Shown here: piece by piece, positions 28,160-32,097 of the stretch
Layout of the letters: each line of letters starts with the position of its first letter
Numbering within the stretch: the first letter of the stretch is position 1
Assembly: GCA_002715725.1 (NCBI GenBank)
Contig: PAZU01000020.1
Span: forward strand, 1-32,433
DNA: 32,433 nt
From: Methanobacteriota archaeon
GTDB taxonomy: Archaea > Thermoplasmatota > Poseidoniia > Poseidoniales > Poseidoniaceae
Reading direction: 5' to 3'
Notes under the pieces: model-generated
Database searches by the model: none
Seen by the model: only the letters and a program-made list of their open reading frames with translations
Told to the model about the DNA's origin: nothing
Translations under genes and position numbers: made by a program

Positions 28160-28219
28160 ACTGGCTGTTCATGGTTGTATTCAAGTATGGTTGCGATAGT
28201 GGGTTGATTGGTGAGCGGG

Positions 28220-29293
28220 ATGAGTGTCTCAACATCTGGTAGTAGTGGCTCTTTGCAAGCCGAAGTTATCGATATCAAAATGGACATCAATGACGATGAC
28301 GAAGATGTCATCATTGCAACCATTTCCATAACAAATGAAGCGCCTGTACCCATGGGTGGCTTGGATGTCTCAGTGATTACTAACACTGGTGCAAAGCACC
28401 TATCTCAAGAAGGAGTAACCAGTCTAGGCCCTGGGATTCAGAGAGATTGGACTTTCGAATTTCCTTTGGATTCTGGCGAATGGACTTTCGTTCTGAAAGG
28501 CTCCTCCGATGAAATCAAAATGGGACCATATGCTTACGATTACGAATACAGTGTTACACAAGGGCGCAAACTATCAAGCAACATTGGTTCATCACTATTT
28601 TCAGGGGCGTTTGATCAAAACTTGAGTGATTTCGGAAATGTGAAAGAACGTGAAATGATTGACCCCTCAAAGGTAGTCATGACATCTTATTCTGCAGAGA
28701 ATTCTGAAGGTGGAGATACTCTAATCAAGACTGATTTAGACAAGCAATCAACTGGTTTAACCTCAACTTCAGATAGTGGAGCGAGGGAGGCACCTATCCT
28801 TAATGCAAATCCAGTTCGAGAAGCACCTCTTTCTCAGCCATCTAGAACAGAGGACCCTTTGTTGGCCCATACTGCAAGTTCAGATTCAGTTAGAGAGGCG
28901 CCCCCTACTCCGCCTGCTCGTCCACCAAAACCTCCTACTCCTCCATCCGGTCCACCAACTCCTCCGTCAGGCCCACCAACGCCTCCGTCAGGCCCACCAA
29001 CGCCTCCGTCTGGTCCACCTACTCCACCTGCTGGTCCTCCAACGGGCCCACCATCAGGGCCACCTACTCCACCTGCAGGCCCACCAACGCCTCCAGCTGG
29101 TCCACCTACTCCACCTGAAGGCCCTCCTACTCCTCCTGCTGGTCCTCCAACGGGTCCACCATCAGGGCCACCAACTCCACCTGAAGGCCCGCCAAGTGGG
29201 CCGCCAAGTGGGCCGCCAACAGGGCCACCGTCAGGGCCACCTGCTAGCAGTTCGCAATCGGTAATCGAAATGCCAGAAAAGCCAGATTTGTGA
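28220..29293 (+). CDS. CARDB-like domain protein with long Pro/Gly-repeat tail (357 aa)
   Basis: Not recognised beyond domain level. Residues 15-110 look like an immunoglobulin-fold CARDB-type domain (AEVIDIKMDINDDDEDVIIATISITNEAPVPMGGLDVSV and LGPGIQRDWTFEFPLDSGEWTF). There is no signal peptide, so the domain would be cytoplasmic, which is unusual. A Ser/Thr-rich linker contains REAP motifs (AREAP, VREAP twice). From about 227 the sequence is a run of GPPTPP(S/A/E)GPP units ending GPPASSSQS. Its composition resembles Pro-rich tails that bind SH3-like or scaffold partners. TTG and GTG starts at 28208 and 28211 are open, but the ATG at 28220 has GGTGAGCGGG upstream. The following small gene starts 9 bp after the stop. 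Confidence 0.75.
   Translation: MSVSTSGSSGSLQAEVIDIKMDINDDDEDVIIATISITNEAPVPMGGLDVSVITNTGAKHLSQEGVTSLGPGIQRDWTFEFPLDSGEWTFVLKGSSDEIKMGPYAYDYEYSVTQGRKLSSNIGSSLFSGAFDQNLSDFGNVKEREMIDPSKVVMTSYSAENSEGGDTLIKTDLDKQSTGLTSTSDSGAREAPILNANPVREAPLSQPSRTEDPLLAHTASSDSVREAPPTPPARPPKPPTPPSGPPTPPSGPPTPPSGPPTPPSGPPTPPAGPPTGPPSGPPTPPAGPPTPPAGPPTPPEGPPTPPAGPPTGPPSGPPTPPEGPPSGPPSGPPTGPPSGPPASSSQSVIEMPEKPDL
28898..29245 (+). repeat. Pro/Gly-coding degenerate tandem repeat (units of 9-18 bp)
   Basis: About 350 bp of direct repeats encoding PPTPPxGPPxGPP units. Identical short copies occur (for example CCTCCGTCAGGCCCACCAAC around 28964-29000), so recent slippage is likely. It is read in one frame without a stop; the opposite strand gives a Gly-rich false frame. 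Confidence 0.85.
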
Positions 29294-30164: not shown

Positions 30165-31156
30165 AATATTGGCACGATGCAGGCCATGTTGCACGCCGGA
30201 CTTTAGAGGCGATGCGCGAAGAAATCACCGTCGGCAAATCCTGGGATGAAGTAATCCAAAGTGCGGAGAGATTCATTCGCAGAAATGGAGGTAATCCCGC
30301 ATTTCCTGTAACAATTGCAGTAGATGATTTGGCTGCACATTACACTACTGATCATGCATCTATTGCGCCAGAGGGGTGGGATAGAGAAATGGTATTCGAG
30401 AATGGCGACTTGGTAAAGCTGGACGTTGGAGTACATATCAACGGTCATATCGGTGATAATGCCCTAACCATAGAAGTTGGTAACAAAGGAAATCATACTG
30501 ACCAAATCAAAGCAGCAAAAGAAGCTAGAGATTCTGCAATCGAAATGCTGCATCCAGGTACACCATGGCATAAGGTAGGGGCTGCTGCTGCTCAACCATC
30601 TATTGACGCTGGTTTCCAGCCCATTAGGAATCTATGTGGTCATCAATTGAAACCGTGGCAGTTGCATTCAGGTGTTAGCGTTCCATCCTATGCTTGTGGT
30701 GCTGATAATCCAGGATTCAAAGGCGTCGTTGAAGAAGGATCAGTGTATGCAATTGAACCGTTCAATACTTCCGGAGAGAGTGGAATGATTCACAATATTG
30801 GAGCCAGAAATTCCTCTAACATATACAGAGTAACCAGTAAAGGACTCTGGAGAAAGGCGCTATCTAGGAAACAAATCAAGCCACTGGGTGCTCAGTTAGC
30901 AAGGAACTTGGAAGAAAGATACTCAACACTTCCATTTGCGGAAAGATGGGCTTTTCCAATGCTGGAAAAACCATTCCCAGAAGCGGATGAAGCTAGTAGA
31001 CAAAGTAAGTGGAACGCTCTGGTGAAAAAACTCATCAGTATAAGATTCCTAGAAACATATCATGCACTAGGATGCAAGGATGGTGGGATGATTGGTCAAT
31101 TTGAACATACTGTAATGGTAAATTCTGGTGGGCCGGAAATCTTGACTGTCGAATAG
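30143..31156 (+). CDS. map: Methionine aminopeptidase, type II (337 aa)
   Basis: Removes the initiator Met from nascent proteins. The pita-bread fold metal ligands are Asp94 (KLDVGVHINGHIGDNALT), Asp105, His167 (NLCGHQLKPWQLHSG), Glu205 (YAIEPFNT) and Glu321 (QFEHTVMV). His66 (AAHYT) is the conserved active-site His. The insertion of about 60 residues between the last two ligands (SSNIYRVTSKGLWRK to FAERWAFPMLEKP) is the type II hallmark shared with eukaryotic and other archaeal enzymes. A frame open to 30089 would overlap the previous gene by 76 bp; the ATG at 30143 (GTG at 30146 also possible) gives the expected length. It closes the plus-strand cluster. Confidence 0.93.
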   Translation: MVDESNLKYWHDAGHVARRTLEAMREEITVGKSWDEVIQSAERFIRRNGGNPAFPVTIAVDDLAAHYTTDHASIAPEGWDREMVFENGDLVKLDVGVHINGHIGDNALTIEVGNKGNHTDQIKAAKEARDSAIEMLHPGTPWHKVGAAAAQPSIDAGFQPIRNLCGHQLKPWQLHSGVSVPSYACGADNPGFKGVVEEGSVYAIEPFNTSGESGMIHNIGARNSSNIYRVTSKGLWRKALSRKQIKPLGAQLARNLEERYSTLPFAERWAFPMLEKPFPEADEASRQSKWNALVKKLISIRFLETYHALGCKDGGMIGQFEHTVMVNSGGPEILTVE

Positions 31157-31212
31157 TTCAACATTGGTTTCTAGTTTTGTTGTAAAGACAATAATAACAA
31201 AAAAAATGTCAA
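31157..31212. other. A/T-rich gap with no gene seen
   Basis: After the aminopeptidase stop comes an A-rich stretch (AATAATAACAAAAAAAATG). It may contain a terminator for the upstream gene or a promoter for the RNA candidate that follows. Together with the next 360 bp it forms the longest gene-free part of the window (31157-31569). Confidence 0.5.
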
Positions 31213-31375
31213 AACGGTTATTTGCCGTAACACCTTGGCTCAACACGAACAGGGCTGTTGAGGTTCTCGTTGAGTGCATCCCATCCCCTCTCCGTTGGCT
31301 CTCACCCTGTTCACCTCAACATGAACTAGCCGCAAGGCTGGATCGATTTGAGAGATTTTTGTAATTTTTTCCAAA
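31213..31375 (+). ncRNA. Candidate structured RNA with possible pseudoknot
   Basis: Intergenic segment without a credible coding frame. GAACAGGG (31247-31254) is exactly complementary to CCCTGTTC (31305-31312), and GTTGAGGT (31257-31264) to ACCTCAAC (31313-31320). The pairs cross, which would give an H-type pseudoknot with adjacent stems. Competing GTTGAG/CTCAAC pairs (31239-31244, 31257-31262, 31269-31274) allow alternative folds. A 6-bp hairpin with a GCAA (GNRA) tetraloop, CTAGCC/GGCTGG at 31326-31341, follows, then T-rich sequence (ATTTTTGTAATTTTTT) that could end transcription. I find no RNase P, SRP or box C/D signature. Strand is inferred from the 3' T-tract. Confidence 0.45.
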
Positions 31376-31510
31376 AAATAGGCTCTTTTCGATGTCTACA
31401 AACTGTATGTACCACTTACTCGGTGTTATTTTTTGAGTTGGAGTTCAATTGGAATAGCCGCGCAGTACACCGGTTTTATCGGCATAAACGGACTTTGTTC
31501 GGCGGAGATA

Positions 31511-31517
31511 TTATATA
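31511..31517 (+). promoter_or_regulatory. TATA box of the pilin gene
   Basis: TTATATA, with GGCGGAGATA just upstream as a possible BRE. The expected start of transcription, about 25 bp downstream, would be near 31540, placing a GC hairpin at the extreme 5' end of the mRNA. Confidence 0.65.
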
Positions 31518-31541
31518 CGGCGCCTGTTGTGGCAAAGTTAT

Positions 31542-31555
31542 CCCCCGCTTGGGGG
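31542..31555 (+). promoter_or_regulatory. 5'-leader hairpin next to the pilin ribosome-binding site
   Basis: CCCCC (31542-31546), loop GCTT, GGGGG (31551-31555). The 3' arm runs into GGAGGAGGA (31554-31562), the pilin ribosome-binding site, whose first two G's are in the stem. The hairpin may protect the 5' end or tune translation. Confidence 0.55.
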
Positions 31556-31569
31556 AGGAGGACAAGAAT

Positions 31570-32097
31570 ATGAACAACGAAAACCGAAACGAAGAGGCAG
31601 TCAGCCCAGTTATCGCTACCATCCTAATGGTTGCAATTACTGTAGTTCTGGCTGGTGTATTGTATGTATGGGCATCTAGCCTAGCCGACGACTCAACCGG
31701 CGGCGGTCTAGACACATACCAGTTTAGCGACAGGGATGCAGCAGGCTCAATGTCTGAGGCAGGCGGCGATGGATTAGTCCACGTTGCAATGACCCAAGGC
31801 GACGATCTAAGCTGGGCTGTACTGAAAGTTTCCATCGTAGTAGACGGTGGAGCATCAATGACCTGTGATGAAGCAGGAAGCGCTGATGCAACTTCAGATT
31901 GCACCTTTGCAAAAGATGACGACAACTACTGGCAAACATCCGAAGAGATCACAATCTCTGAAGGTAGTGACACAGACCTATGTGACGGCACTGACGGAGG
32001 CTGCTCTGTAGTAGTAACTCTAACAAAGATCGGTGTCGGTAACGAAGATGACAAAGTCATCCGCTCCGTTAACGCATACGCTGACGCTTCTAACTGA
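31570..32097 (+). CDS. Archaeal type IV pilin-like protein (175 aa)
   Basis: Surface filament subunit or pilin-like protein. The N-terminus MNNENRNEEAVSPVIATI is a class III (FlaK/PibD-type) signal, with cleavage expected before AVSPVIATILMV. The hydrophobic assembly helix AVSPVIATILMVAITVVLAG leads into VLYVWASSLADD, the classic archaeal pilin/DUF1628 opening. The ectodomain is acidic, Gly/Ser/Thr-rich and beta-like, with two Cys pairs (TCDEAGSADATSDC and DLCDGTDGGC) that could form disulfides. The ATG is 7 bases after GGAGGAGGA; an open frame to 31348 is ignored. Own TATA box and a strong terminator mark it as a single-gene, probably highly expressed unit. Confidence 0.9.
   Translation: MNNENRNEEAVSPVIATILMVAITVVLAGVLYVWASSLADDSTGGGLDTYQFSDRDAAGSMSEAGGDGLVHVAMTQGDDLSWAVLKVSIVVDGGASMTCDEAGSADATSDCTFAKDDDNYWQTSEEITISEGSDTDLCDGTDGGCSVVVTLTKIGVGNEDDKVIRSVNAYADASN

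Follow-up and report, generated by a model that had tools for sequence, protein, structure and literature searches.

Trans-acting small RNAs (sRNAs) usually undergo quick evolutionary turnover, and their targets are hard to name. In E. coli, the prophage-derived bacterial small RNA DicF represses ftsZ by base pairing. Among archaea, the loops of sRNA154 were proposed to act on mRNAs, some of which are stabilised and others blocked (available part of PMC5867862). In the CdrS-FtsZ2 system of haloarchaea, the gene of a ribbon-helix-helix (RHH) regulator adjoins ftsZ, is conserved in archaea and controls cell division (PMC7439475, in its accessible sections). An abundant, uncharacterised ncRNA of 229 nt, Tan1, was described in marine Thalassoarchaea (PMC5069720, partial text).

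We analysed a DNA stretch of 32,433 nt from a Poseidoniaceae genome (contig PAZU01000020.1, hereafter the window), in which the segment from 31247 to about 31370 probably encodes a stand-alone trans-acting antisense sRNA. It would act on RHH(-ftsZ) mRNA by means of a loop seed and one hairpin arm.

The intergenic locus and its hairpin

The interval is flanked by a peptidase M24 gene, which ends at 31156, and a pilin-like ORF. The parts of the candidate gene are as follows.

31208..31223, + strand: probable archaeal promoter element GTCAAAACGGTTATTT, a block conserved in the genus
31247..31370, + strand: candidate small RNA gene, conserved in genus, family and phylum; 3' end uncertain
31247-31312, + strand: hairpin core of the sRNA, followed by a lineage-specific tail reaching the T-tracts
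31247..31254, + strand: terminal helix P1, 5' arm (pairing and covariation in Poseidoniales)
31272..31290, + strand: loop element GAGTGCATCCCATCCCCTC, nearly invariant, the proposed pairing seed (exact 19-mer in at least 118 stretches)
31297..31311, + strand: second pairing segment GGCTCTCACCCTGTT in the 3' arm, complementary to the 3' region of the RHH mRNA (swap test)
31305..31312, + strand: terminal helix P1, 3' arm (pairing in the genus and in Poseidoniales)
31326..31341, + strand: GCAA-capped hairpin of the 3' tail, lineage-specific, as 14 of 18 aligned genus sequences have it (count by eye)
31356..31370, + strand: T-tracts, candidate terminator (from the sequence)

The first-pass annotation had described an intergenic RNA candidate with two crossing helices, taken as a pseudoknot or a switch. 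Its sequence facts were correct: GAACAGGG (31247-31254) pairs with CCCTGTTC (31305-31312) and GTTGAGGT (31257-31264) with ACCTCAAC (31313-31320), in the order 1-2-1'-2', and the GCAA-capped hairpin at 31326-31341 is followed by T-tracts at 31356-31360 and 31365-31370. For a structured RNA it had looked to conservation and compensatory changes in relatives, and both were found. The second helix and the pseudoknot geometry, however, are not conserved. In the genus alignment (17 of 18 rows, L010 being excluded as it contains N), helix 1 was paired at 100% and helix 2 at 77%, one helix 2 column being paired in 2/17 sequences. Crossing perfect 8-bp helices within 80 nt occur at a single place on the + strand of the window, and at least one such crossing was present in 34 of 200 dinucleotide-shuffled windows, so that the pattern by itself is unremarkable. 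A pseudoknot or switch, to which the two perfect crossing helices of the window sequence had pointed, thus retains next to no probability. The additional GTTGAG/CTCAAC copies on which the switch rested are absent from relatives, and no support was found for a block-swap rearrangement. The conserved centre, namely the loop between the helices (31272-31290), had been overlooked, as had the complementarity of this loop and the 3' arm to a second genomic locus.

It is the terminal helix that relatives have kept. Across 27 Poseidoniales sequences, P1 was 98.6% paired, 4 of its 8 pairs had changed on both sides, and its covariation score was reached by none of 500 shuffles (the structure alignments comprised 36 and 27 rows, hand-picked from 52). 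Arm sequences vary by lineage, with GAACAGGG/CCCTGTTC in Poseidoniaceae, GTACAGG/CCTGTAC in Thalassarchaeaceae and GGAAGGA/TCCTTCC in Thermoplasmatales-like MAGs, and the loop that they enclose is the same. Inside the loop element 31272-31290, a 3-bp GAG/CUC stem encloses a 13-nt open loop; the hairpin core presents an open, nearly invariant C-rich loop, GAGUGCAUCCCAUCCCCUC. When eight RNAs were folded as single sequences, the terminal stem formed in all eight and the loop was mostly open in most of them, the inner pairing of two (L217 and L178) being predicted differently. The single-strand fold is modest in stability (z -2.1; 8 of 200 shuffles equally stable). We read the interval as what looks like a small-RNA gene with a hairpin core and no pseudoknot.

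Candidate signals of such a gene are also visible. In the window, the AT-rich 8-mer of the promoter element has its start at -31 relative to the 5' arm; an AT-rich 8-mer starting between -29 and -31 was counted by eye in 48 of 71 non-redundant relatives. These 71 derive from 212 loop loci, reduced to 73 non-redundant ones, two of which had no recognised arm and were dropped; ATATAAA is clear in many of them. This spacing is the one expected if transcription begins at the 5' arm, and the AT-rich element is probably the archaeal promoter of the sRNA. T-rich stretches follow the hairpin on its 3' side in many relatives.

Conservation extends far beyond the genus. A DNA search gave a strong match (E <= 1e-28) in 19 of 27 genus genomes; the remaining 8, all incomplete assemblies, gave a weak match or none. 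In the alignment of 18 distinct genus sequences, the block from GAACAGGG to CCCTGTTCACC is nearly invariant. At the family level, the 70-nt core was matched at E <= 0.1 in 136/170 genomes and 11/11 genera, a count that takes in weak second-locus matches and some chance matches. In the named genome collection, at least 118 stretches contain the exact loop 19-mer, the titles among the matches listed being Poseidoniales, Poseidoniaceae, Thalassarchaeaceae, Thermoplasmatales, Thermoplasmata, Thermoplasmatota, Euryarchaeota and Marine Group II; the viral contig collection gave 0 exact matches. Across the phylum, a loop 17-mer with at most one mismatch was found in 258/389 genomes, target sites and sRNAs being counted alike, and a reversed control pattern appeared once among the matches listed. 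Some families of the phylum lack the 17-mer in all or nearly all members. One genome, G343, holds several copies of the sRNA gene (on L427, L429, L430, and on the reverse strand of L431 at 1500 and 1734, these last two being 234 nt apart).

No known RNA class accounted for the locus. Rfam 15 gave no match there at the gathering threshold and solely chance-level matches at E up to 10, as the first-pass annotation had anticipated in recognising no class, and gave no match in 4 distant relatives. SRP RNA and RNase P RNA were found by family models elsewhere in the same genome, and the sRNA locus matched neither. C/D box guide RNAs carry a C box, RUGAUGA, and a D box, CUGA; neither motif was seen by eye in 31247-31326. 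An rRNA-directed guide RNA would be expected to have extended complementarity to rRNA; the 23S genes of 3 genus loci contained no 9-nt complement. No report of this RNA was found in the open-licence literature.

Two further observations concern the neighbourhood. Between the sRNA and the pilin-like ORF (window 31380-31575) lie more conserved blocks, e.g. CTACAAACTGTATGTACCACT, together with a TATATA element ahead of the pilin-like start and a CCCCCGCTTGGGGG hairpin adjoining a probable ribosome-binding site. Further upstream, window 28208-29293 contains an ORF with long proline-glycine-rich repeats of the GPPTPP type; disordered, collagen-like proteins are reported to be very highly expressed in Marine Group II (PMC5069720, in the part available).

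The complementary site behind RHH genes

Besides the sRNA locus, the genus search returned one extra short match per genome. In the window's own genome, this second locus is on contig C21, where the other strand reads GGGUGAGAGCC...GGAGGGGAUGGG, and the site starts a few nt 3' of the stop codon of an RHH gene. In most genomes of the genus, the second locus contains the 15-nt complement of segment 31297-31311. When 39 genomes were searched for the 14-mer, many proved to have another exact site; three such sites, in Thermoplasmatales-like MAGs, lie between a 79-aa RHH gene and ftsZ.

We then have 44 genomes in which both the RNA and the RHH 3' region could be read, the latter being located by RHH and FtsZ protein searches and by reading of the flanks (the RHH stop codon of G161 was read by hand). 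In all 44 pairs, a complementary G-rich site is found on the mRNA-sense strand just 3' of the RHH stop, and the complementarity covers the sRNA loop and one arm. One genome outside these 44, G175, has the loop RNA, and its best FtsZ match shows no visible site or RHH gene alongside.

The surroundings of the site differ by lineage. The layout RHH-site-ftsZ holds for 11 of 12 Thermoplasmata genomes. The Poseidoniales loci read showed no ftsZ next to the site, and the leaders of Poseidoniales ftsZ genes (6 loci) showed no site, save stray partial motifs in L367. In other families of the phylum, the site follows an RHH-like ORF alone (L423, L405, L407) or precedes ftsZ-like genes (L417, L424, L406, L418, L410, and L428 with the known layout), and G379 has sites of both kinds; part of the upstream ORFs in these further families were found by similarity and the rest called RHH-like from reading. 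We regard the RHH genes as CdrS-like; the short Thermoplasmata RHH protein has a marginal Pfam score. Since the Poseidoniales site stays with the RHH gene with no ftsZ alongside, the regulator mRNA appears as the constant partner.

This distribution bears on the direction of the regulation. The 3' end of the RHH mRNA could itself be the regulator, sponging an sRNA or a ribonucleoprotein whose real job is elsewhere, which would suit both the lack of an ftsZ beside the Poseidoniales sites and a loop whose near-invariance exceeds what the target demands. The ftsZ leader, however, is where the site sits in most of the Thermoplasmata genomes read, and ftsZ is plausible as a target; we hold the sponge to be unlikely. 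Within our preferred reading of an sRNA acting on the RHH mRNA, the constancy of the loop goes beyond the needs of several targets, so the loop may have another partner.

A few loci remain apart from this picture. Near-exact complementary sites away from RHH genes were seen in L326, L317, L327 and L397 (in the last, at 1501, genome G336), and may be extra targets or chance matches; one non-RHH site is 6 nt 3' of the stop of an ORF that by eye resembles an SprT-type metalloprotease. Between the RHH gene and a helicase gene, an intergenic region of about 290 nt (L061, 1225-1517) is conserved within the genus; its many hairpins seem to carry compensatory changes, and it may contain another RNA element. 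As to the second locus itself, 23S rRNA, SRP RNA and RNase P RNA were considered and rejected, and a Na+ riboswitch match near the target locus (19.9 bits, threshold 40.5), which overlaps coding sequence, was judged to be chance.

Strength and co-variation of the predicted pairing

In the window's genome, the duplex between the sRNA and its own target was predicted at -66.1 kcal/mol, compared with -35.3 at best for the ends of 51 other ORFs and -46.9 at best for 2575 window tiles. For 41 of the 44 pairs, the duplex was better than with all 200 mononucleotide shuffles of the target, and for 3 it was not. Cofolding gained 13.4-46.2 kcal/mol in every one of the 44.

Co-variation was measured on the arm. 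As a shared loop cannot reveal co-variation, the loop was omitted from a swap test in which cognate arm-target pairs were set against permuted ones. With the 3' arm of Poseidoniales (17 pairs, hand-picked among 33), the cognate mean was -21.27 kcal/mol vs -17.17 for permuted pairs (sd 0.69), and none of 20,000 permutations was equally good; the genomes are related, hence not independent. The signal was strong in most Thalassarchaeaceae and in G000, G030, G120 and G163; it was absent from 4 of the 17 (G032, G066, G169, G193), where the cognate arm did no better than the average stranger. The same test on the 5' arm of Thermoplasmata (9 of 11 pairs) was not significant (p 0.095); the two genomes with the most divergent arms, G171 and G172, have matches of about 19 and 17 bp to their own leaders. 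Complementarity to the mRNA is thus kept by co-variation for the Poseidoniales 3' arm, the Thermoplasmata 5' arm not reaching significance. Lineage-matched changes of arm and target can be followed in several groups (g1, GGCUCUCACC/GGUGAGAGCC; g9, UUCUCUCACC/GGUGAGAGAA; g2, GGCUUCCUCC/GGAGGAAGCC; g8, GGCUCUCGCU/AGUGAGAGCC). From genome comparison, we consider the pairing and the target of the sRNA to be well supported.

These data also weigh on three other explanations. On the strand opposite the RHH 3' end, the second locus might hold a paralogue of the window RNA, as an RNA or a motif, and the two would have a protein- or RNA-binding motif in common. The shared stretches do have a common order along one strand at the two loci, which makes same-strand identity and opposite-strand complementarity inseparable from one genome, and gene conversion could keep the two loci alike. 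Yet the second locus has neither the other arm nor the GAG/CUC-closed loop; what it shares is the 3' arm in Poseidoniales and the 5' arm in Thermoplasmatales; it lies at the RHH stop codon in all pairs examined; and the arms at the two unlinked loci change together by lineage. Paralogy is in our view quite improbable.

Alternatively, the loop might mimic an anti-Shine-Dalgarno sequence; its targets would then include many G-rich ribosome-binding sites, and the RHH site would simply be the best target of all. The string GCAUCCCAUCCCCUC(CU) resembles the 3' end of archaeal 16S rRNA, there are some additional near-exact sites, and the loop varies less than the RHH target would demand. The sites are nevertheless placed just behind RHH stops rather than generally at ribosome-binding sites, and in Poseidoniales the arm too pairs and co-varies with the RHH site, which leaves this mimicry about as doubtful as the sponge.

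Finally, RHH proteins belong to a family that binds DNA, and the motif repeated at two loci could mark places where the RHH protein binds, one at its own gene and the other in the sRNA locus, with no RNA pairing involved. A protein site would be expected to show neither hairpin covariation and constant promoter spacing, nor a complementarity that is gapped, extended into an arm and co-varying, and this explanation appears very improbable.

Proposed action and comparison with known systems

We infer that the RNA is transcribed and that it pairs with its target in the cell. The hairpin would offer its open C-rich loop, which would seed pairing with the G-rich site directly 3' of the RHH stop; one arm would then open and the duplex extend into it, in this presumed order. 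The arm used would be the 3' one in Poseidoniales and the 5' one in Thermoplasmatales-type lineages. In g1, a stretch of the target repeats part of the 5' arm of the RNA itself (AACAGGG), so that the target could displace that arm.

The consequences would depend on the layout. In RHH-ftsZ operons, the duplex would form in the intercistronic leader, where it is expected to lower FtsZ translation or to uncouple FtsZ from the regulator. In the leaders of G171 and G178, it is predicted to end 6-7 nt before the ftsZ Shine-Dalgarno, which makes blocking or uncoupling of ftsZ translation the simplest expectation, with sRNA162 as a precedent (PMC3510493, in the text available). In Poseidoniales, the sRNA would act on the 3' end of the RHH mRNA, through its stability or processing. 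In folds of the unpaired leader, the predicted accessibility of the ftsZ Shine-Dalgarno is inconsistent between genomes, so that folding cannot separate repression from activation. The sRNA probably restrains or uncouples expression of the regulator and FtsZ; effects on stability and a part for helper proteins are conceivable.

On balance, we favour the broader view that this is an ancient sRNA, inherited since early in the phylum, which would control cell division by pairing with RHH(-ftsZ) mRNA, its site travelling with the RHH gene even in genomes that have ftsZ at another place. Genomes alone are enough to discern the RNA-mRNA pair throughout the phylum, together with matched changes in both partners: fold, complementary target and Poseidoniales co-variation are all apparent in the sequences. 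If the proposal is true, the pair would be, to our knowledge, among the most deeply conserved trans-acting sRNA-target pairs in prokaryotes, and would give archaeal cell division a post-transcriptional layer open to direct testing, uncultured ocean Poseidoniales included.

In kind, the candidate is an antisense sRNA, distinguished by a loop that is constant phylum-wide, a target fixed behind the RHH stop and a lineage-specific pairing arm. With DicF, to which it has no known relation in sequence or host, it would share the control of ftsZ by base pairing. Tan1 comes from the same organism group; at 229 nt, vs about 70-125 nt for the candidate, and compared by description only, it may coincide or overlap with it (PMC5069720, partial text). 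Like the candidate, sRNA154 is a structured archaeal intergenic sRNA, but according to the available part of PMC5867862 it is nitrogen-regulated and conserved within Methanosarcina, whereas the present RNA is phylum-wide and has putative RHH(-ftsZ) targets. Likewise archaeal and trans-acting is sRNA162 of Methanosarcina mazei, whose pairing site lies within a bicistronic mRNA for a transcription factor; it pairs by an unstructured linker, whereas the candidate would use a constant hairpin loop and an arm, and organism group, target and layout all differ, the likeness being one of description alone (PMC3510493, as far as accessible). The target side points to a division locus of the CdrS-FtsZ type, for which the accessible sections of PMC7439475 describe transcriptional control only and mention no sRNA; what the present candidate would add to that system is an sRNA layer.
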